A stretch of DNA of 45,436 bases from a virus, in the IMG/VR virus record IMGVR_UViG_3300045996_004602, positions 1 to 45,436 of that record. The stretch is one strand, 5' to 3'. A program made the position numbers and the translations under genes. How positions within the stretch are numbered: the first letter of the stretch is position 1; each line of letters opens with the position of its first letter. This document shows positions 1-39,062 of the stretch, piece after piece. A model generated the notes under the pieces. That model was given only the letters and a program-made list of their open reading frames with translations. It did no database searches and had not been told where the DNA came from.

Positions 1-1260
1 ATGTCAAAACTCACCCTCAACATCGTCCCATTCGAGAATCGCGGTGGTAGCACCTCGTATCGCGTGACTGGGTCCGTTTTGGGCAAGCAACTGAGAAAGA
101 ACTTTCCGACCCTTGTAGAGGCGGAAGTGTTTAAACGTGGGATTCTGGCCAAACACACGCAAGTCGAATCAGTCCAGATTGTATCAACTCGACTTCGGCA
201 AGACGACATGCCCCGCATCGAGGCGTGGGTTGAGCAGCTCGGTGGCGTCGACGCTCTTGGCGGCGCGGTGGAGTTCTTCCTGAAGCACAAGGCCCCTGCC
301 GTCACCTTCGAGACGCCGTTCGCCGCCGTCGATGCCTTTGCCGCTGACCGAGACAAACGGGGCGTCAAAAAGAAGTCAGTGATGAAGTCGGTCATGTATA
401 AGATGATCCGGCAACTGGGGGTCGATGACATCATGCAGCTAAATGCTGAACGTCTCCGGCCTTGGATTTACGATTTTACGGTCGAGGCGCGGACCCGTAG
501 CGACCGGCGCGTATGGCTCGTCGGATTTTTCAAGTTCCTGAAGAAAATCCACGCGTGGGAGGGGGCGTCACCAATCGACGAAATCGAGCGTCCAATATGG
601 CGGGCAGGCCTTCCGGGTATCCTCGGCCTCGACCGGGTTCAAAAGCTCGTGGACGAGGCCGCAAACGACGTTTACGGCGAGACTGGAGAGGCCGGCGTGA
701 TGCTCGGATACTTCGCGGTCTGCCTCTTCACGGGCATCCGACCGGAGGAGGCGCAGAAACTGGGGCAGGGCAGGCCGAAGGACCCCAAAGACCCGAAGGG
801 AGAGCGGACCGACGGTTGGGAGTTCGTCCACTTCGAGAACAAGCTTATCGAGCTGCCTCCGGATATGGTGAAGGTGGGCGGCGTCCGAAACGTTCCGCTT
901 CAGGATAACGTGCTCGCGATCCTTGCGGAGGTGAAGCGCCGAAAGCTCCCGTTCTGCTTCTTCTCGAAGCGAGTTTTTAACCGGGTGCGCAAGGCGGCTG
1001 GCGTCCTCGCTGACTGGGAATCTGACGTGCAGCGTCACTGCTACGCGACCTACCACTACGCCGTTCACAAAGACGAAAAGTTCCTTGAGAGCGCCATGGG
1101 GAACAGCCGGAAGGTGCTGTTCAAGCACTACATTCGACGGACCGTCACAGAGTCGCAGGGCAGGGCCTACGCGACGATCACTCCGACTGGGTGGGGTCTT
1201 CTTTCTTTGTCGCCTTCTTCCCCGCCTCAATCTGGTCAACCAACGTCTGAAGCTGGGTGA
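1..1260 (+). CDS. int: Tyrosine recombinase / phage integrase
   Basis: 419 aa. Site-specific recombinase expected to integrate and excise the element by cutting DNA with a tyrosine nucleophile. Visible catalytic-domain landmarks: Arg I in FTGIRPEEAQ (R247), a lysine between strands (about K291, DMVKVGG), Arg II in QRHCYAT (R345) and the nucleophile in LFKHYIRR (Y377). Two box residues differ from the common form: the His three before Arg II is Asp (DVQRH), and the usual GHS is GNS. Such variation occurs among divergent integrases, so this need not mean inactivity. The N-terminal third would be the arm/core-binding part. The ATG is at the first base of the window, so a longer N-terminus cannot be excluded. 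The 3' end overlaps the end of a leftward RHH gene by 83 nt. The family call is secure; the attachment site is unknown. Confidence 0.9.
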   Translation: MSKLTLNIVPFENRGGSTSYRVTGSVLGKQLRKNFPTLVEAEVFKRGILAKHTQVESVQIVSTRLRQDDMPRIEAWVEQLGGVDALGGAVEFFLKHKAPAVTFETPFAAVDAFAADRDKRGVKKKSVMKSVMYKMIRQLGVDDIMQLNAERLRPWIYDFTVEARTRSDRRVWLVGFFKFLKKIHAWEGASPIDEIERPIWRAGLPGILGLDRVQKLVDEAANDVYGETGEAGVMLGYFAVCLFTGIRPEEAQKLGQGRPKDPKDPKGERTDGWEFVHFENKLIELPPDMVKVGGVRNVPLQDNVLAILAEVKRRKLPFCFFSKRVFNRVRKAAGVLADWESDVQRHCYATYHYAVHKDEKFLESAMGNSRKVLFKHYIRRTVTESQGRAYATITPTGWGLLSLSPSSPPQSGQPTSEAG

Positions 1261-3872: not shown

Positions 3873-5024
3873 ATGGCTAAGCTCAAGCTCAGTCCAACGG
3901 ACGAGCGTGCTGGGTTGCCCTCTGCGTCCGCGTTCCAACGTTACGACCTCTGCCCGGGGTCATGGAACGCGGCACAGTTGGTGCCAGCCGCCACCCGCAA
4001 TCAGTCGAGCGTCGATGCCGCCGAAGGCACCATGCTCCACGAACAAATTGCCCTCCGGTCCCGTGCGGACATTGAGGCCAATTCTGACCTCTCCCAGAAA
4101 CTTTCCCACGAACAGCGGGCAACCTTGCTCCGCGCTCTCAACAACGACGCCGCGCTGATCGAGCAATACGGTATCACGCCTCGTCAGGTGGATATCGAAA
4201 AACGCCTGTTCCTTCACGACCCGGTGAAGCTCGCGCCGGTCGCCTCTGGCAAGTTCGACCGAGTCCTTTACGGCGATTTTAACGCCCGCGTCCTCGTCAT
4301 CGACTACAAGTTTGGACGTGGTGACGTGGAGAGCGCCGAACTCAACCACCAGCTCCGTTTTTCGGCGGCGGTGCTCGATGCCGAACACGGCCCTGAAGAG
4401 GTCATCGTCGCCATTAACCAACCTCGCGCCGATGGCGGTATGCAGGTCACGTCTGCGGTCTATACGCGTGACGACTTGGTGAAGGCACGTGAGGAGGTGT
4501 TCGCCATCCTCGAAAAAATCCGCGATCCGAACGCCCCGCGTATCGCCGGTTATGAGCAGTGCAAGTATTGCCCAGCCCGTGGCACGTCGGCGTGTCCCGA
4601 ATCCATCGCTGCGGTCGCCAAGGTCGCCGGTCTTCCGGACAACCTCAACCCCAGCGAACTGGCCGAGGCCCTCAAGTTGGCAAAGCTCGCCGAAAGGGTC
4701 ATTGAAGCCATGCGTGAGCAGGCCAAGACGTGGCTCGCCATTCAGCCAGACGCGATTCCTGGCTGGCTGATGAAGCCGGGACAGACGCGCAAGTCCGTCA
4801 CCGACGCACAGCGCGCCTTCAACATCCTCAGCGCGGACGGTCTCGTCACCCAAGACGAATTCGTTGCCGCGTGCTCTGTGAAGCTCACCGACCTCGTCGA
4901 AATCGTCGCCGAGAAGAAGGGACTGAAGGTCAAGGCCGCCCGCGAGGCCGTCGAAACCTCGCTACGCGCCGACTTCCTAATCGACGAAAAAACCACCGCC
5001 CCGTCACTCGCCGAGGCCAAGTAA
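3873..5024 (+). CDS. RecB/Cas4-like PD-(D/E)XK nuclease (DUF2800-like)
   Basis: 383 aa. Landmarks: SASAFQRYDLCPGSW near the N-terminus, EGTMLHEQIALRS (the His of this nuclease type), SGKFDRVLYGDF and VIDYKFGRG (the D...DxK core), then QLRFSAAVL. A Cys cluster (GYEQCKYCPARGTSACP) recalls the C-terminal iron-sulfur cluster ligands of RecB/Cas4 nucleases. Expected role: exonuclease resecting DNA ends for phage recombination together with the preceding protein. The ATG at 3873 is chosen because the fold starts right there and the upstream extension is intergenic. Confidence 0.75.
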   Translation: MAKLKLSPTDERAGLPSASAFQRYDLCPGSWNAAQLVPAATRNQSSVDAAEGTMLHEQIALRSRADIEANSDLSQKLSHEQRATLLRALNNDAALIEQYGITPRQVDIEKRLFLHDPVKLAPVASGKFDRVLYGDFNARVLVIDYKFGRGDVESAELNHQLRFSAAVLDAEHGPEEVIVAINQPRADGGMQVTSAVYTRDDLVKAREEVFAILEKIRDPNAPRIAGYEQCKYCPARGTSACPESIAAVAKVAGLPDNLNPSELAEALKLAKLAERVIEAMREQAKTWLAIQPDAIPGWLMKPGQTRKSVTDAQRAFNILSADGLVTQDEFVAACSVKLTDLVEIVAEKKGLKVKAAREAVETSLRADFLIDEKTTAPSLAEAK

Positions 5025-10479: not shown

Positions 10480-10694
10480 CCGAACCGCACGGCGGTCCAC
10501 AGGGCCGCGCCCACAAGGCCAACGCCCGTCACCCAGCCAAGTCCGAGGGTGATGGGCCTGCCCGCATAGCCGAACGTCTCCACGTCCACCACGTCACCAG
10601 CCTTCCCATACATCCACGCGCACAACGCCACACCGCATACGAGGAGGGGGGCTGAGACGAACACGATACGAAGGGGTTTAACTGGATCGGACAT
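10455..10694 (-). CDS. Small two-TM membrane protein
   Basis: 79 aa with two hydrophobic segments (about 9-29, IVFVSAPLLVCGVALCAWMY, and 47-69, PITLGLGWVTGVGLVGAALW). It could be a holin-like or immunity membrane protein, but nothing specific supports this. It is a lone leftward gene, and its upstream side is the repeat-bearing spacer at 10695-11032, where its promoter must lie. Confidence 0.6.
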   Translation of the reverse strand: MSDPVKPLRIVFVSAPLLVCGVALCAWMYGKAGDVVDVETFGYAGRPITLGLGWVTGVGLVGAALWTAVRFGQNGKPSA

Positions 10695-10757
10695 CGGGGG
10701 ATCAAAGGGGGTTTCCGCAGGTTACTGTCAAGCTCATTCCGCTATTCCATTCGTAGC

Positions 10758-10805
10758 TGTATCCTGCTATTGGATACACGCCGCTTGTAAAAAGCCGCTT
10801 GTAAA
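10758..10805. repeat. Dyad plus 12-bp tandem direct repeat
   Basis: TGTATCC-N7-GGATACA is immediately followed by two copies of GCCGCTTGTAAA with a 14-bp period. On the minus strand the repeats present TTTACA twice, which could be alternative -35 elements for the gene at 10694. Iteron-like binding sites for the replication initiator or a repressor are the other possibility. Confidence 0.55.
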
Positions 10806-10928
10806 TGTAAAAATCGCCCTGCCCCGCACCCACCCCCCCCCTAAGGAATCTCTTTGACGACACCGCAGGCCGGTGGTTCGGACCGAGGCCCGTGATCCGG
10901 GAGGGGAGGCAGGGCGGTGGGGTGAACC

Positions 10929-11024
10929 ATGAGCCGCTACGAGGCCTCGACGAGCTTTCGGCGAATGGAAGGGGAGGCGGCAGACTCAAAAAGGCCTCGC
11001 GGTTGGTTGGGCCTAAGTGTTTAA
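10929..11024 (+). CDS. Possible 31-codon ORF
   Basis: 31 codons, starting MSRYEASTSFRRMEGEAADS; its TAA stop lies inside the GTTTAAAC copy at 11019. The ATG follows GGTGAACC. Basic, no family. Listed because it fills an otherwise empty spacer; it may not be expressed. Confidence 0.25.
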   Translation: MSRYEASTSFRRMEGEAADSKRPRGWLGLSV

Positions 11025-11032
11025 ACACCGTC

Positions 11033-11251
11033 ATGTCATTCGCTGCATTTAAAGAGGCATTCGAGGACGAACTGGCTCTATGGCCACCATCGGAACACCG
11101 GTTCGATAGGTTGCTCACTGATTTGCGGACCCATGCCCTTCCATCGGTAAAAAAATACGTCCTGACCGTGGAGGAAAGATCCGAGCTGCAACGGATCTAC
11201 TGGCGTGCGGAGGAAGCCGAGCGCGTCAAAAAATCGAATGGGTCTGCTTAA
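11033..11251 (+). CDS. Small acidic helical protein
   Basis: 72 aa (SFAAFKEAFEDELALWPPSE, VKKYVLTVEERSELQRIYWR). Charged and helical, no domain recognised. It is an isolated rightward gene starting 7 nt after a GTTTAAAC copy and ending just before a hairpin with A/T runs. The ATG at 11033 is preferred over upstream in-frame starts because the extension is Gly/Arg-rich spacer sequence. Confidence 0.5.
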   Translation: MSFAAFKEAFEDELALWPPSEHRFDRLLTDLRTHALPSVKKYVLTVEERSELQRIYWRAEEAERVKKSNGSA

Positions 11252-11256
11252 ACACG

Positions 11257-11293
11257 AAAAAGCCCCCGCCGGGCCGGAGCCAGGTCAGGGGCT
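11257..11293 (-). terminator. Intrinsic terminator of the leftward operon
   Basis: Read on the minus strand: AGCCCC, a 21-nt loop region, GGGGCT, then TTTTT. It lies just past the last gene of the leftward operon (stop at 11301) and could also slow plus-strand transcripts from 11033-11251. Confidence 0.7.
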
Positions 11294-11300
11294 GTGTTGT

Positions 11301-11564
11301 TTAAACGGGCCTCTTCTCTACTGCGAGAAACGTGGACACACCCGGCATGGGTGAATCGTTTCGCATCATTTTTTTGGTGAAGTCGTAAAAGTCAGCGAGG
11401 CATTTTCCGTCCTCTTCAGGACGCCAGTTCGTTCGATCCTCTGGCACGACCTCGCCCGTTTCTTCATCAACGTATGCTTTCCTCACGCGCCAATCATTTC
11501 GGGGTGTGCGGAAGGCCGGATGGTCTTCGATGCTTTTCTCAACCGTTTCGAGGTAGGGGAACAT
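11301..11564 (-). CDS. Small protein of unknown function
   Basis: 87 aa (MFPYLETVEKSIEDHPAFRT, KAYVDEETGEVVPEDRTNW, CLADFYDFTKKMMRNDSPMP). No domain recognised. The ATG at 11564 follows CCAAATCACCATCCC, similar to the CTCCAAATCACC leader of late genes. Its stop codon TAA is inside a GTTTAAAC copy (11299-11306). It is flanked by terminators on both sides, so it may be its own transcription unit. Confidence 0.65.
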   Translation of the reverse strand: MFPYLETVEKSIEDHPAFRTPRNDWRVRKAYVDEETGEVVPEDRTNWRPEEDGKCLADFYDFTKKMMRNDSPMPGVSTFLAVEKRPV

Positions 11565-11591
11565 GGGATGGTGATTTGGTATATGGTGCAG

Positions 11592-11622
11592 AAAAAAGGC
11601 CGGAGCGGCAAGCCGTCCGGCC
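11592..11622 (-). terminator. Strong intrinsic terminator
   Basis: Minus strand: GGCCGGA, an inner mini-stem, TCCGGCC, then TTTTTT (11597-11592). It follows the DUF488-like gene (stop 11630) and ends the long leftward operon. Confidence 0.8.
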
Positions 11623-11629
11623 ATAGTGT

Positions 11630-12517: not shown

Positions 12518-12963
12518 AGGTCGGGAACTGTGGGGATGGTTTGGATACCGGCGTGTTTGTCGGCGGTGGTGACGCCGGCCATGCGGCTGATGGCGTCGAG
12601 GTCCTTTTCGTGACCGTGGGCGTGGCCTTGGAGGAGCCGGCCCTTGATCCGGCCCGCGTGGTAGGCGATGCGAGCGCCCATCTTTTCCTCGTGTTCGTGG
12701 ACGATGCGGGAGAGGCGTTCGGCGAACTGGTCAACCGGGAGGTGGTGGAGTTTGGGGATCGCCTCGGTTTGGAGCCAGACGCGGTAGCCCTCGGGATCGT
12801 CGGGCGGCGGTGCCAGGACGATGACGCGGCTGCGCTTGGGCTCGATGGTGACGGCGGCGCATTCGATGCCGTCCTCGGATTCGTGGATGACGCCGAGGGT
12901 GAGGGCTTGAGCCGGTGCGGGCTCGTCGGTGTGAGTGTCGGGAGTGAGTTTTACTTTGGCCAT
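12514..12963 (-). CDS. Phage protein of unknown function
   Basis: 149 aa with a disordered start (MAKVKLTPDTHTDEPAPAQA), a beta-rich middle (LGVIHESEDGIECAAVTIEP, KRSRVIVLAPPPDDPEGYRV) and a helical His-rich C-terminus (FAERLSRIVHEHEEKMGARI, LLQGHAHGHEKDLDAISRMA). No family recognised. The leader has GTAACCAA, a GTTTAAAC copy and CCAATG. Confidence 0.6.
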   Translation of the reverse strand: MAKVKLTPDTHTDEPAPAQALTLGVIHESEDGIECAAVTIEPKRSRVIVLAPPPDDPEGYRVWLQTEAIPKLHHLPVDQFAERLSRIVHEHEEKMGARIAYHAGRIKGRLLQGHAHGHEKDLDAISRMAGVTTADKHAGIQTIPTVPDL

Positions 12964-13951: not shown

Positions 13952-14228
13952 TGGTTTTTTTGGTCGGATGTTTGGTTACGGACGACCGGGTCCGGGGTTC
14001 CGGTTTCCAGTCGTCATGCAACACGCCTCCCCGGCGCTCCTCTGTCTGGATGGCGCGGTCGATCAGGGTGTTGTTTTCGGTCTTCTTCACGGGGTCGTTA
14101 CGGTGGCCACTCTCGTAAGAGCGGAGGGTGGAGAGTTTGATCCCCCACGCCTCCGCTGCCTGTTGAGCGTTCCAGCCGCGACGCCGTTTGATGAGCCACA
14201 TTTTTTCAAAGCGGGTGAGAATTGCCAT
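13890..14228 (-). CDS. XRE-like helix-turn-helix regulator
   Basis: 112 aa. The N-terminal half has a Cro/CI-type HTH (GWNAQQAAEAWGIKLSTLRS, then YESGHRNDP). The C-terminal half is basic and disordered (RTRSSVTKHPTKKTNDSPKP ... RKRRR). Candidate phage regulator. Upstream (14240-14260) lies a box shared with two other control regions, directly ahead of its start. Its 3' end overlaps the next gene by 62 nt, containing that gene's leader. Confidence 0.7.
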   Translation of the reverse strand: MAILTRFEKMWLIKRRRGWNAQQAAEAWGIKLSTLRSYESGHRNDPVKKTENNTLIDRAIQTEERRGGVLHDDWKPEPRTRSSVTKHPTKKTNDSPKPPPDSWRHPTRKRRR

Positions 14229-18368: not shown

Positions 18369-20036
18369 TCAACGGCGTCCGTGCTGTCCACCGGCAACGA
18401 CGTGACCGAGGGTGGAGAGGATTTTTTCCACCATGTTCGCGGGCGTCAGGCTATCGACGGTCCGGAGGAAGCAGTCATGCTGCATCGGTTGGTCGATCAG
18501 GAATCCGTAAGTCTCAAGGCGGCGATCCCGGCCAAGTAGTTCCTTGATCCGGCTCGCCTCGTATGGATCAATGTCCCCGTCCGTGATTATCGCCTGAATC
18601 AGGCGGTTCTCGCGGCGAGGGAGGAGTGACTGTAGGCCGCTCTCCATTGCATAGAGAAGATTCGTGGCATCGTGCAGGCCGACGCGCCCGATGGGGCTGT
18701 CAACCACACGCTCGTTCCACGCCTTCACCACCTTAACCGACGTGCTGAATGCGAGCACCTCGCATGGGATGCGAAGTTTCTCGAACAGTTCGGCGAGGAC
18801 GAGCGACAACGCGTTGGCGGCGTCGATGCGGGTGGACGTGGCGTGCTTTCCACGGGTGAGCTTTTGCGTTCCGTCTTCGTCATGCCCGGCGGTGTGGATG
18901 CCTTGGTTCCGATTGGAGTCGTAGCACATGGACCCGCTGTAATCGACGAACAACTGGACGGCGGTGTTGAGGCGCTCGGCATGGGTTGTCCGGTAGAAAA
19001 TGCGGTCGAGGTTTTGCCCCGTCGCGAGGTCCGTGATCTTCCGGAAGTCGAGGTCGCCGGTGTCCTTGTCGTAGGTCCGTTTGTGACGGGATACGCTCAA
19101 CAGCTCCTCACGGAGGGCCGCGAGGAGGGCGTTGAAGCCGGACACCTCAATGCGATGCCGCTCCCGCGTGGTGTGCTGGAGTGGGATGCGCGGGATGGGG
19201 TGGGGCATCGCCCGGATCGGAGCCGGCGGCGTGATGAACTGGAGATTGCCGAGGTCGGGTTGAACGGTCGGGGTCGCGTCGTCGCTTCCGCCGTCGTGGA
19301 ACACGTCCTCTGCCTCTCCGTAGTCGGGGCGCTCGATTAGAGGGTCGTCTTCGGGGTCGGTGGTTTTGCAACCGCCGCCTTCCTGTGGACCGTCTTTCTC
19401 CTCGCCCTCGCCGTCGTCGCCCTTGTCGGGTTTTCCGTCCCCGTCTTGGTCGTCCGGTTTGCCGTCGCCTTCACCGTCGCCGTCCTGCGGGTCTTGGTCG
19501 CCAGCGTCACCGTCACCGTCGGAGGGTTGGCCGTCTCCCTCGTCTGGTTTTTGGTCGCCGTCGCCTTCGCCGTCTTCCTGCTCCTCGCCCTCGCCGTCGC
19601 CCTTGTCGGGCTGCGGTTGGTCCTTCTTCTCCGGCTTCCCTTCGCCTTTACCCTTGCCGGGTTTGAGCGGGGGTGGCGGATCGTCGGGGAACACGGGGCG
19701 CGGCGGGTGTGGAAACCCAAAGGCGTCAGCGATGGCGCAAAAACCGCCATGGAGCCGGCGTTCGTCCGCCGTCATCGAGTCGAGCTGTGCGACATGTTCG
19801 AGCAGGTAGTCGCTTTTGGCGTTCACGCCCTTGCCGTAGCGGGGGCCTTGGAGCCGGTCGCGAATCTCGGTGGGCATCTGCTTGCGGCGGACGTGCCAGC
19901 CGTAGCGTTTCAGATACCGCTCAACGAATCCGTAGGTGAGCCGGTAGCGGTCGCCGACACGGGCGATGGTCGTTCCGGGCGGGGGCCGCTTCGTCGGATC
20001 GTCCGGCGGCGGCTGGTGTGTAATGATGTCAGCCAT
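18369..20036 (-). CDS. CobT-like VWA-domain protein
   Basis: 555 aa. Residues 1-115 form a helical domain; about 118-250 is a very acidic Gly/Asp/Pro-rich linker; then RIEVSGFNALLAALREELLS leads to a von Willebrand A domain with a MIDAS-type VDYSGSM (D365, S367, S369), later ITDGDIDPYEASRIKELLGR and FLIDQPMQHDCF. This is the architecture of CobT-like metallochelatase-type partners, which work with a CobS/MoxR AAA+ ATPase. The ATPase gene is directly upstream (20058-21278) and its TAA stop is in this gene's leader. In phages such pairs have no firmly known role; cobalt chelation here is unlikely without other cobalamin genes. Confidence 0.8.
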   Translation of the reverse strand: MADIITHQPPPDDPTKRPPPGTTIARVGDRYRLTYGFVERYLKRYGWHVRRKQMPTEIRDRLQGPRYGKGVNAKSDYLLEHVAQLDSMTADERRLHGGFCAIADAFGFPHPPRPVFPDDPPPPLKPGKGKGEGKPEKKDQPQPDKGDGEGEEQEDGEGDGDQKPDEGDGQPSDGDGDAGDQDPQDGDGEGDGKPDDQDGDGKPDKGDDGEGEEKDGPQEGGGCKTTDPEDDPLIERPDYGEAEDVFHDGGSDDATPTVQPDLGNLQFITPPAPIRAMPHPIPRIPLQHTTRERHRIEVSGFNALLAALREELLSVSRHKRTYDKDTGDLDFRKITDLATGQNLDRIFYRTTHAERLNTAVQLFVDYSGSMCYDSNRNQGIHTAGHDEDGTQKLTRGKHATSTRIDAANALSLVLAELFEKLRIPCEVLAFSTSVKVVKAWNERVVDSPIGRVGLHDATNLLYAMESGLQSLLPRRENRLIQAIITDGDIDPYEASRIKELLGRDRRLETYGFLIDQPMQHDCFLRTVDSLTPANMVEKILSTLGHVVAGGQHGRR

Positions 20037-20057: not shown

Positions 20058-21278
20058 TTACAGGCCGTTGGTAATGATCGCGGCGGCTTCGCGGTGCTCC
20101 GCAGCGGGGAGGCCGTCAAGAAGGCAGAAGTCCATCGCCTCCTGTGGGGAGAGCTGTTCGACGCACTTGTTGCCCTCCTCGTCCTGACCGAGCATGCAAC
20201 GGGCGATGCGCACCGCGATGCGGGTGGACGGGGCGGCGGTCAACTTGCGGGCCTCGTAGGCGGCGCGGAGACCGTTGAAGATGCCGACAAGTTTTTCCGC
20301 GTTGGTCGGCGTGAGTCCGACCCGGGCAAGAATGGACGCCTCTGTCTTGGCCGGGAGGTAGTCGCATTTGACGAACACGATGCGGTTGAGCAGCGCGGCA
20401 TTGAGGCGGAAGCCAGAATAGTTGCCGGTGTCGTCGCGGAGGGTGTTACACGTCATGAAGACCTGAAACCCCTGCTTCGCTTCGATGGTCTCGCCGGTCT
20501 GCGGGATGAAGATACGGCCGGTTTCGAGCACCGCGTTGAGGACGCTGATAATCTCGGGTTGGCACTGGTCGATTTCGTCCAGAATCAGCCCCATGCCATT
20601 GAGCATCGCGATGGGGAGGAAGCCGTAGGTGTAGAACGTTTCCGTTCCGGTCCCCGTCGCCCTGGCTGCGGGCTTCGCGAGGAAGTCGGAGAGGGCGAGA
20701 CCGTCGGCGACGCTGACCTTGAGGTAGCGTTGGCCGTGCTTACGCAGCATGTTTTCCAGCGGGAAGGTTTTGCCGGAGCCGGACGGGCCAGACGCCATGA
20801 TGTGGCGGCGCGAGCGGATGGCGTAGTCGATCCGCTTGGTAACGTAGGCGTCCTCGACGAAGAATTTGTCAACGGGGAGGAGGGGAGGGAGAGGGGTGGA
20901 TTGGCCGGACTTGAGGCTGGCTGCAACGGAGGCGGTGAAACCGGACTGGAACACCTCGTCGGCGATCCGCTTCATGTCGGCCTCGACGAACTTCACCTTG
21001 TTGGCTCCCTGCTGTTGGACGGAGACGGCGATGGCGTCTTGGAGGGTCTTGGCCTGCTCCATCAGCACCTTGCGGACACCGTCATCGTGTTGCTTGAGGA
21101 ACTTCGTGATGTCGTCGCCCATCTGCGTGAAGTTCGCTTTGGAGAGCTTCGTGAGTTCCTCCATCTTGCGGTTGATGAGGGGCTCGGCGTATTTCACTAC
21201 GTCCTTTTCTTCGACATCCAGTTCGAGGTTTTCGAGGATGCGGGTGACGAGCTGGCGGACTTGTTCTTCCTGAGTCAT
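20058..21278 (-). CDS. CobS/MoxR-like AAA+ ATPase
   Basis: 406 aa. A helical N-terminal part (1-130), then the AAA+ core: Walker A GPSGSGKT (164-171), KVSVADGLALSDFLAKP, YGFLPIAMLNGMGLILDEID (Walker B 231-237), then VFMTCNTLRDDTGNYSGFRL (sensor I) and LLNRIVFVKCDYL. This matches CobS/MoxR ATPases that remodel or load a client with a VWA partner. It is the first gene of the leftward operon; upstream lies the structured region and a leader with GAACCAAATACATCC and TCCAATG. Confidence 0.85.
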   Translation of the reverse strand: MTQEEQVRQLVTRILENLELDVEEKDVVKYAEPLINRKMEELTKLSKANFTQMGDDITKFLKQHDDGVRKVLMEQAKTLQDAIAVSVQQQGANKVKFVEADMKRIADEVFQSGFTASVAASLKSGQSTPLPPLLPVDKFFVEDAYVTKRIDYAIRSRRHIMASGPSGSGKTFPLENMLRKHGQRYLKVSVADGLALSDFLAKPAARATGTGTETFYTYGFLPIAMLNGMGLILDEIDQCQPEIISVLNAVLETGRIFIPQTGETIEAKQGFQVFMTCNTLRDDTGNYSGFRLNAALLNRIVFVKCDYLPAKTEASILARVGLTPTNAEKLVGIFNGLRAAYEARKLTAAPSTRIAVRIARCMLGQDEEGNKCVEQLSPQEAMDFCLLDGLPAAEHREAAAIITNGL

Positions 21279-21324
21279 TGGATTTTTTGGTCGGATGTAT
21301 TTGGTTCTCTCTGCGTTTAAACGG

Positions 21325-22110
21325 GCTTGAGACCGTCACGCCTTCCCACACGGGAGGCGGGCCGCATTAAACCGCCGACGGCACACGATGGAGCGCCCGT
21401 CTAGTCACGGGTGCTCAGTCATGCCGCCGGGGTTTTGAACTCGTTGCCGCCGTCGTCGCGACGGTGGGCGAGGGTTGGAGACGCCGTCCGGAAGGTGGAG
21501 CCGGGGGAGCGTCTGTTCGGGTTGTGAGCTTTTGCAGATAAAAGGATTTCAAATCTGATCCCTCGTCGTCGCTGGCCGGCCTTGTTGGGTGTTATCCATA
21601 GGCGGGCCGCTCGGAGGCAGGCTCGTTTACACTGGCGAGTGCTACTCGTGATCGCGTTTTTCTCAGGCAGGGGTGGACACGCTGGCATTTCGGGTCATGG
21701 CGGCTAGTCACCGCTCTCCGTAGCAGGGGTGGTAAATCCCCGCCGTGCTTGTCCCTGTCTCAGCTACGCCCCCACTTCATCGGCTTCGACGGCGATTGCT
21801 CGCCCGCCTCCATGGGTGCCAAAGGCTGTCATTCTACTTCACGCTTTCTTTCGCACTGGTTTCTCGACTTGTTCCCCCGCCTCCCTTTCGGACGGGCGGG
21901 GACTTGGAAAGGCGAAACCTGCCTTCCTATGAGTGTTACCCAGTTGTCTCCGTTTCGGTCGCCTCTCGGCGTCCCGGTGGCTCTCACCACGCGGCCCTAT
22001 TCACTGGCAAACTACCCATCCCCCGGTCTGTCGGGGGGAACGTGTGGCCTCTCGATTTAACGAGGCCGGAGAAAGAACGGCCTTCAGTATGCCATAAATT
22101 TACTACATTG
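21325..22110 (-). ncRNA. Candidate large structured non-coding RNA (minus strand)
   Basis: About 790 nt without a credible gene, full of inverted repeats. On the minus strand they fold into hairpins with GNRA tetraloops: GCC-GAGA-GGC (21961-21970), a 7-bp stem CCCCGCC/GGCGGGG capped by a CC-GAAA-GG helix (21875-21901), GGCGA-GCAA-TCGCC (21791-21804). Others: GGCCTC/GAGGCC (22046-22067), CCCCCG/CGGGGG (22020-22037), nested CGTAGC/GCTACG (21719-21768) around GGGG/CCCC, CCGTCG/CGACGG (21450-21464), and two hairpins with the same apex (21396-21411, 21700-21714). GNRA loops on this strand only fix orientation. It may be a standalone RNA (cf. giant phage RNAs such as GOLLD and ROOL, to which I cannot align it) or a long leader for the CobS-like operon. 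Ends are approximate. Confidence 0.7.
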
Positions 22111-22178
22111 CATAGTAATATTACATACTAAAAGCCGTTTACTATCAACGACTTATAAAGTGCCGTGATACGGCATAC
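22087..22178. promoter_or_regulatory. AT-rich divergent control region with nested dyads
   Basis: An AT-rich island in GC-rich DNA. It holds GTATGCC (22087-22093) facing GGCATAC (22172-22178), TTACTA-N7-TAGTAA (22100-22118), GTAATATTAC (22115-22124) and TGCCGT-N3-ACGGCA (22161-22175). Leftward it faces the structured RNA and CobS-like operon; rightward it faces the late genes. It therefore looks like a central operator/promoter region. Confidence 0.55.
22120..22148 (-). promoter_or_regulatory. Putative leftward promoter
   Basis: Minus strand: TTGATA (22148-22143), 17-nt spacer, TGTAAT (22125-22120). Start would be near 22112, at the upstream edge of the structured RNA candidate. Sequence match only. 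Confidence 0.4.
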
Positions 22179-22230
22179 ACGTTTAAACGGGTTTTTGTGG
22201 GGTAGCTCAAGCCGATTCGACGCCCGGAAA

Positions 22231-22299: not shown

Positions 22300-22395
22300 A
22301 TGGCACGCGCTAAAGCAGTCAAAAAGAAGGCCCCCAAGGGCAAGTCCAGGGGCGGTCGCTCCAAGAGCGGCGGCAAGGGCAAGTCCAGCGGTTAA
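22300..22395 (+). CDS. Tiny Lys/Arg/Gly-rich basic protein
   Basis: 31 aa, starting MARAKAVKKKAPKGKSRGGR and ending in Gly/Ser/Lys. It resembles histone-tail-like or protamine-like DNA-binding peptides and lacks any fold. It is the first gene right of the central control region and is followed by a hairpin, so it may be made in quantity. Function (DNA compaction, RNA binding) is inferred from composition. Confidence 0.55.
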   Translation: MARAKAVKKKAPKGKSRGGRSKSGGKGKSSG

Positions 22396-23155: not shown

Positions 23156-23987
23156 CGCTGGCCAACCCGCGCCCACAACTCCACTGCCCGAAGCCGCTCC
23201 TGTCACTGTTACCGCGCCCGGTGACGGCGAGGTGTCCAAGTTCCAGCGGTTCACCACGGACACGATCCACCGGTCGCAGATCAAGAACGCGACATACAAC
23301 CCGCGCCAGATCACGGAGCAGGCGAAGAAGCGCCTGCGTGACGCGCTCAACCGCGTCGGCCTCGTCCAGCCCATCGTTTGGAATCGCCAGAGCGGGAACA
23401 TCGTCGGCGGTCATCAACGCATCAAGCAGCTCGACGCGCTTGAGGGTGGCACCGACTACCGCCTGACGGTCGCCGTCCTCGACGTGGACGAGGTCCGTGA
23501 AAAGGAACTGAACGTCCTCCTCAACAACCCGGAGGCGCAGGGCGATTGGGACCTGAAAGCGTTGAAAGACCTCCTCGACACGGACGGCCTCTCGCTGGAG
23601 CACACCGGTTTTGGAGTCGCCGACCTCATGCAAATGTTCGGTGACGCGCCCATGCAGGATGGGGCCGTCCAAAACGAACTCGCCGACCAACTCTCCGGCG
23701 TGAAGGGAGCCTATGAGAAGCTCGCCAATATGTCGCTGAACAAAGACGACAGTGATTTTTACTGTGTCGTCGTCTTCCGGTCTGTGGACGAGCGGACCCG
23801 CTTCCTCGAAGCGATGGAGTTACCCGACAACCGATACGTCAACGGGGACTACCTGACGGACCGCCTGAAGCTCGCTCGCGCTCAACTGGGGGCGGAAGAA
23901 GCCGAGGGAACCACGGAAGGGAACCGGGGCGGCGAGGGGGGCGGAGTCAGCCAGGACAAACCCGTAGTCGCCAAAAAAGTAGGGTGA
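23109..23987 (+). CDS. ParB/Srx-domain protein (IbrB-like)
   Basis: 292 aa. After a Pro/Ala-rich start the domain reads IKNATYNPRQITEQAKKRLR, LVQPIVWNRQSGNIVGGHQR (the GGHQR active/CTP-site motif of ParB-like proteins), DVDEVREKELNVLLNNPEAQ, then TGFGVADLMQMFG and a C-terminal KLARAQLGAEEAEG tail. ParB-like enzymes of this kind bind nucleotides or act as nucleases. The start at 23109 overlaps the PP-loop gene by 47 nt, so the two are coupled. The 3' end overlaps the leftward ASCH gene by 168 nt. Confidence 0.75.
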   Translation: MPKRPSNGVSGSASVDAGQPAPTTPLPEAAPVTVTAPGDGEVSKFQRFTTDTIHRSQIKNATYNPRQITEQAKKRLRDALNRVGLVQPIVWNRQSGNIVGGHQRIKQLDALEGGTDYRLTVAVLDVDEVREKELNVLLNNPEAQGDWDLKALKDLLDTDGLSLEHTGFGVADLMQMFGDAPMQDGAVQNELADQLSGVKGAYEKLANMSLNKDDSDFYCVVVFRSVDERTRFLEAMELPDNRYVNGDYLTDRLKLARAQLGAEEAEGTTEGNRGGEGGGVSQDKPVVAKKVG

Positions 23988-38987: not shown

Positions 38988-39062
38988 AGCAGGCTAGTTC
39001 AGCGGTAGAACGCCGGACTCATAATCCGGAGGTCGAGGGTTCGAGTCCCCCGCCTGCTCCCA
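38988..39062 (+). tRNA. tRNA with CAT anticodon (Met, or Ile2 if modified)
   Basis: Perfect 7-bp acceptor stem (38988-38994 with 39052-39058), D stem GTTC/GAAC, anticodon stem CCGGA/TCCGG with loop CTCATAA (anticodon CAT at 39020-39022), variable AGGTC, T arm with loop TTCGAGT and one A-C mismatch, and an encoded CCA (39060-39062). It begins with A1-U72 and has C at the discriminator, both unusual. A CAT tRNA is read as elongator Met or, after lysidine modification, Ile. It sits in the tail module in the sense direction. Confidence 0.9.

Follow-up and report, generated by a model that had tools for sequence, protein, structure and literature searches.

A non-coding stretch upstream of a CobS-like operon in a virus genome ends in an element that, by its sequence, structure and covariation, is almost certainly a twister ribozyme (positions 21303–21373, minus strand), with predicted cleavage activity. 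The window, meaning the whole stretch of DNA analysed, comprises the 45,436 bases of an IMG/VR virus record, and all numbering follows window positions. The original prediction had placed a large structured minus-strand RNA at 21325–22110; its 3’ boundary at 21325 falls inside the twister, and the structured element runs on to 21303. A transcript beginning at about 22112 probably cleaves itself here into two parts, a structured RNA of ~744 nt and the mRNA of the CobS operon, which keeps a leader of 90 nt.

The flagged stretch lies, together with a small Lys-rich ORF (22300–22395, plus strand), between two divergent gene sets: terminase, portal and major head protein genes running rightward from about 24.3 kb, and the CobS-like operon running leftward from 21,278. 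The first operon gene (20058–21278, minus strand) encodes a CobS-like AAA ATPase (PHROG 249, E=6.4e-36; Pfam AAA_5, E=3.7e-13), and its ATG lies 24 nt past the twister end without a Shine-Dalgarno sequence. Of the CobS/CobT-like operon originally proposed downstream, the CobS part is borne out, while the gene in the CobT position (18369–20036, minus strand) has no family match in PHROG or Pfam; a partial counterpart, 34% identical, is present in a second virus, L001. The small Lys-rich ORF precedes a PAPS-reductase-like gene in three viruses (the window; L001 at 4131–4276, minus strand; L100 at about 360–500, plus strand), and the window copy is without a family match.

A region search aligned 21303–21373 to the type-P1 twister family (Rfam RF03160) over its full length (1–68 of 68) with 56 bits and E=1.4e-11, and a search of the whole record gave E=1.2e-13. 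The curated Rfam gathering cutoff for this family is 67.2 bits, above the scores of both the window and L001 (45.5 bits, E=8.3e-8); under curated thresholds the window shows a tRNA only, and the twister surfaced when an E-value threshold was applied to the region. The alignment places P1 at 21373–21370/21306–21303 (GGUU/AACC), P2 at 21366–21363/21315–21312 (UGCG/CGCA), P3 at about 21360–21337 and P4 at 21336–21334/21323–21321, with pseudoknots T1 at 21331–21329/21309–21307 (CUC/GAG) and T2 at 21362–21361/21326–21325 (GC/GC). The termini lie in P1, stems P1, P2 and P4 all pair, and P1 and P2 form 4 of 4 pairs in both the window and L001. Loop L1 carries UAA at 21369–21367 (minus strand), which holds the U-A dinucleotide that defines twister cleavage (PMC5408937), so that from alignment position the predicted cleavage site is the step between U21369 and A21368. 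The element thus shares with RF03160 all stems, both pseudoknots, the U-A cleavage step and the conserved loop letters; it differs in its T1 (CCC/GGG in the consensus), its sub-cutoff score and the long structured RNA that precedes it.

Covariation across viruses is strong for this element. A pattern scan of viral contigs uncovered 17 more twister-like sites apart from L001, and 18 sequences, among them the window and L001, had a 5’ half that could be parsed. Both pseudoknots form in every one of the 18, with T1 alternating between CCC/GGG and CUC/GAG and T2 between GC/GC and AC/GU; the scan patterns restricted varying loop letters to two choices and did not impose pairing itself. As a negative control, 26 other TerL-related virus records contained no twister at E≤0.1. 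Between the window and L001, P1, P3 and T2 differ in sequence with pairing retained, T2 changing on both sides from GC/GC to AC/GU, and P1, P2, T1 and T2 pair in both.

The viral sites also speak for the main rival to an independently acting RNA, an ordinary long 5’ leader in which the twister shortens the operon mRNA and the 740 nt ahead of the ribozyme are transcribed spacer or a cis-acting regulatory leader with no independent life. Sixteen of 19 viral twister-P1 sites, counting the window and L001, lie 2–57 nt from a start codon, where about 10 would be expected at random positions. Most of them have coding sequence close upstream and no large RNA there, and a twister therefore needs no large RNA. 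We regard the leader explanation as possible, though on the unlikely side, and return below to the conservation that bears on it. Bacterial twister and hammerhead ribozymes have been described in the vicinity of phage genes, the purpose of the association being still unknown (PMC10085705). The window has in common with these cases a self-cleaving ribozyme in a phage intergenic stretch; the reported associations are strongest with Mu-like phage genes, whereas here the neighbours are a CobS-like operon and about 740 nt of structured RNA upstream. Ribozymes also occur in clusters in other records, with six hammerhead-II and RAGATH-28 at one phage locus (L020) and six twister-P5 at another (L013).

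Upstream of the ribozyme, the original claim that some 790 nt hold no credible ORF stands. None of the ORFs there matches a PHROG family at E≤1, two antisense ORFs compared between the window and L001 do not align, and a six-frame comparison of the two viruses stays inside the shuffled range; a coding explanation was dropped on these grounds. The minimum free energy of 21279–22112 (834 nt) corresponds to z −5.6 on the minus strand, where none of 20 shuffles did as well, and to z −2.7 on the plus strand. This agrees with the predicted large structured RNA, but in 160-nt windows the excess stability is limited to two spots, 21359–21518 (z −6.2) and 21999–22158 (z −4.6), and the middle is ordinary. 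At the 740-nt scale the minus strand comes about 5th among the genome’s 120 strand-windows (8 shuffles each), and because four other strand-windows score lower, folding energy alone is neither unique nor decisive.

GNRA loops had been reported to close stems only when the region is read leftward. If a minimum stem of 4 bp is set, the minus strand has three GNRA hairpins (GAGA 21985, GAGA 21967 and GCAA 21799) against 0.52 expected (p=0.0135), and the plus strand has none; lowering the minimum to 3 bp gives 4 against 1.5 expected, which is not significant (p=0.06). The GAGA loop at 21967 and the GCAA loop are thus upheld, while the GAAA loop at 21889 has a direct stem of just 3 bp. The nested stem described earlier is present, as 6 bp at 21720–21725/21763–21768. 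A 23S rRNA-like look of GCCGAUGAAG was dropped, there being no Rfam match.

The same strand comparison bears on a DNA-level explanation, in which the region is a palindrome-rich divergent promoter or replication origin and the twister is its sole RNA element. Its position between divergent operons and its AT-rich centre suit such a role, as does the presence on both flanks (21315 and 22181) of the genome-wide palindrome GTTTAAAC. Palindromes would, however, fold about equally on both strands, whereas here both the folding energy and the GNRA hairpins are biased towards the RNA strand, and the flanking copies belong to a 22-copy genome-wide set that is not specific to this place. We consider a DNA control region improbable. 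In favour of a large minus-strand structured RNA ahead of the CobS-like operon are the folding bias, the lack of a protein, synteny with L001 and a twister that works on that strand only.

The palindrome set is an observation in its own right. Copies of GTTTAAAC include those at 2342, 5733, 8312, 15774, 18323, 21315, 22181, 26480, 29038, 32537, 38308, 40778 and 43473, one of the copies sits inside the twister, and many spacings are 2.2–2.8 kb. By direct count CGTTTAAACG is present 13 times, with about 1.5 expected even when one mismatch is allowed, and 22 of the 23 genome occurrences of TTTAAA sit in a GTTTAAAC palindrome. The palindrome recurs in three copies in L001 and one in L024, and is absent from about 20 more distant TerL relatives. 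The phage’s ParB-like protein (23232–23987) might bind it.

L001 is a 7.2-kb sequence with TerL, TerS, ParB-like and PAPS-reductase-like genes on one side and CobS and the next gene on the other, so that the order TerL-TerS-ParB-PAPS reductase, divergent from RNA-twister-CobS, is common to both viruses. TerL, the ParB-like protein, the PAPS reductase-like protein and CobS are 52–61% identical between them. About 700 non-coding nt separate the two gene sets of L001 before its twister, whose end lies 24 nt from the CobS ATG as in the window. The L001 upstream RNA folds with z −3.0 on the RNA strand and z −1.7 on the opposite strand.

Poor conservation of the upstream sequence favours a plain leader: overall alignment of the upstream RNA between window and L001 is not above shuffles (p about 0.08). 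The 5’ halves have no recognised structure in common. Against such a leader, however, a 24-nt block and the hairpin adjoining the ribozyme are both conserved, folding is strand-biased in both viruses, and both retain a long non-coding stretch. The best-conserved block of the upstream RNA (21753–21845, minus strand; alignment A6 with L001) comprises GAnGUAGAAnGnnAGC followed by AAGCCGAUGAnGnnnGGGCGUAGC, the latter being the 24-nt block, identical at 20 of 24 positions to L001 4598–4621 without gaps (E=0.005); these and the block CGGCGUCnCCAA occur in the same order in both viruses. The long hairpin directly 5’ of the twister (21375–21435, minus strand) is kept in L001 (4898–4942) with changed sequence, including 3 two-sided changes among 10 aligned pairs, and an ACGC...GCGU hairpin (21479–21514, minus strand), whose 3’ arm lies within CGGCGUCnCCAA, has its L001 counterpart at 4835–4854.

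Paired folding of the two viruses, anchored on the conserved blocks, yielded 29 shared pairs, 7 of them with two-sided changes; an unanchored run yielded few shared pairs. Shuffled controls (n=23) averaged about 11 shared pairs, and 1 of 23 also reached 29, with more two-sided changes. The shared pairs include the long hairpin before the twister, the ACGC/GCGU hairpin, a hairpin at 21603–21579 and a long-range helix between GUAGA (21837–21833) and UCUGC (21538–21534). Shared folding of the upstream RNA thus has modest support from sequence comparison. Because just two homologues were found in the collections scanned, covariation is strong for the twister and modest elsewhere, and an independent role for the upstream RNA is plausible.

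L001 was the only relative carrying the RNA in viral scans; the other CobS match, L005, is 32% identical and lies outside the RNA comparison. Three TerL relatives have neither a CobS match nor a twister: L036 and L100, where a PAPS-reductase-like gene lies near the contig end, and L024, a 5.3-kb fragment from which the RNA position is absent because it ends in the ParB-like gene. Beyond these, 41 sources searched with a sequence model of the 94-nt core gave no convincing match, and the 388 genomes searched from the phylum to which L117 (a Verrucomicrobiota MAG) belongs gave one weak match (L119), without a twister. Twister searches of two MAGs with related terminases came back empty, and annotated phages gave no match. 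Further candidates (L105–L115) matched the core pattern and were rejected, since most matches lay inside long open reading frames and none had a twister within 1.5 kb; on closer reading L108 is coding.

The search for large phage RNAs suggested by the original prediction matched neither GOLLD nor ROOL; the regional Rfam search gave the twister-P1. GOLLD and ROOL RNAs assemble into nanocages built from RNA alone; their genes lie in phages and prophages, in many cases close to tRNA islands (PMC12286853). Size, phage origin and a complex predicted fold would fit membership of either family, and large size, phage encoding, an elaborate fold (predicted in the window) and unknown function are common to all three. 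Against this, neither GOLLD (RF02032) nor ROOL (RF03087) matched at E≤10 in the whole record, a search that gave no positive-control signal for ROOL, and neither matched in a regional Rfam scan at E≤5, in which other large Rfam RNAs likewise had no match to the region. The only tRNA, a tRNA-Met at 38988, lies 17 kb from the stretch, and no tRNA array is near; such a neighbourhood is frequent for GOLLD but not strict. Unlike both families, the window RNA would owe its 3’ end to a linked self-cleaving ribozyme. That it belongs to either family is very improbable.

The upstream end is AT-rich (35% GC at 22100–22199), as noted originally, and holds the promoter-like TTGATA-N17-TGTAAT (22120–22148, minus strand; read by hand from the sequence, with a start expected near 22112), but a strict promoter scan listed no site there. 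In this tailed phage, the leftward transcript of the CobS operon would begin with the region, its start near 22112 being suggested by these hexamers. Polymerase would make first about 740 nt of non-coding multi-hairpin RNA, which folding statistics support and comparison supports weakly, then the twister and then the CobS-operon message. By analogy with characterised twisters, the ribozyme would cut its own strand between U21369 and A21368. The 5’ product, a structured RNA of about 744 nt (21369–22112, minus strand) predicted from the fold z, GNRA excess and lack of a conserved ORF, would be set free with a 2’,3’-cyclic phosphate end; the 3’ product would be the operon mRNA, with a 5’-hydroxyl and a 90-nt leader that opens with the ribozyme core and carries no Shine-Dalgarno sequence. 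Cleavage would therefore fix the 3’ terminus of the large RNA and part it from the operon message.

The alternatives first posed, a new RNA class or a very long leader, are not mutually exclusive, because the twister would convert one into the other by cleavage. The original observation holds for the most part, and its interpretation in part. Between a freed upstream RNA with a function of its own and a discarded leader, we lean slightly to the former, as plausible. The ribozyme joins a known family, and what differs is the composite, with a long structured RNA directly upstream. It is possible that the upstream part represents a new RNA class, and we put forward tentatively, as such a class, large structured RNAs of phages that would rank with GOLLD and ROOL and be cut from an operon transcript by a twister at their own 3’ end. 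The natural job of bacterial and phage twisters is an open question, as is the reason for their association with phage genes (PMC10085705). In two diverged viruses a twister is placed with a large structured RNA on one side and a gene on the other, which suggests one such job: to release the mRNA and at the same time give the large RNA its 3’ end. If functional, the upstream RNA would extend the short list of giant RNAs known from phages.

Other non-coding features of the window were observed in passing. Positions 10614–11629, about 1 kb without a credible gene and flanked by converging operons, fold strongly on both strands, and Rfam gave no match there. Similar A/C-rich leaders of the type GTAACCAAA...CATCCGACCA stand immediately 5’ of the ATG, without a Shine-Dalgarno sequence, at minus-strand genes starting at 12963, 13951, 15876, 17855, 18269, 20036 and 21278, and the CobS leader has a near-repeat at 13952–13977. 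On the plus strand, AAATTGACTnG is repeated just 5’ of rightward genes (22228, 27048, 29942 and 38556) and is possibly a phage promoter element, with 6 matches when one mismatch is allowed against 1.8 expected.
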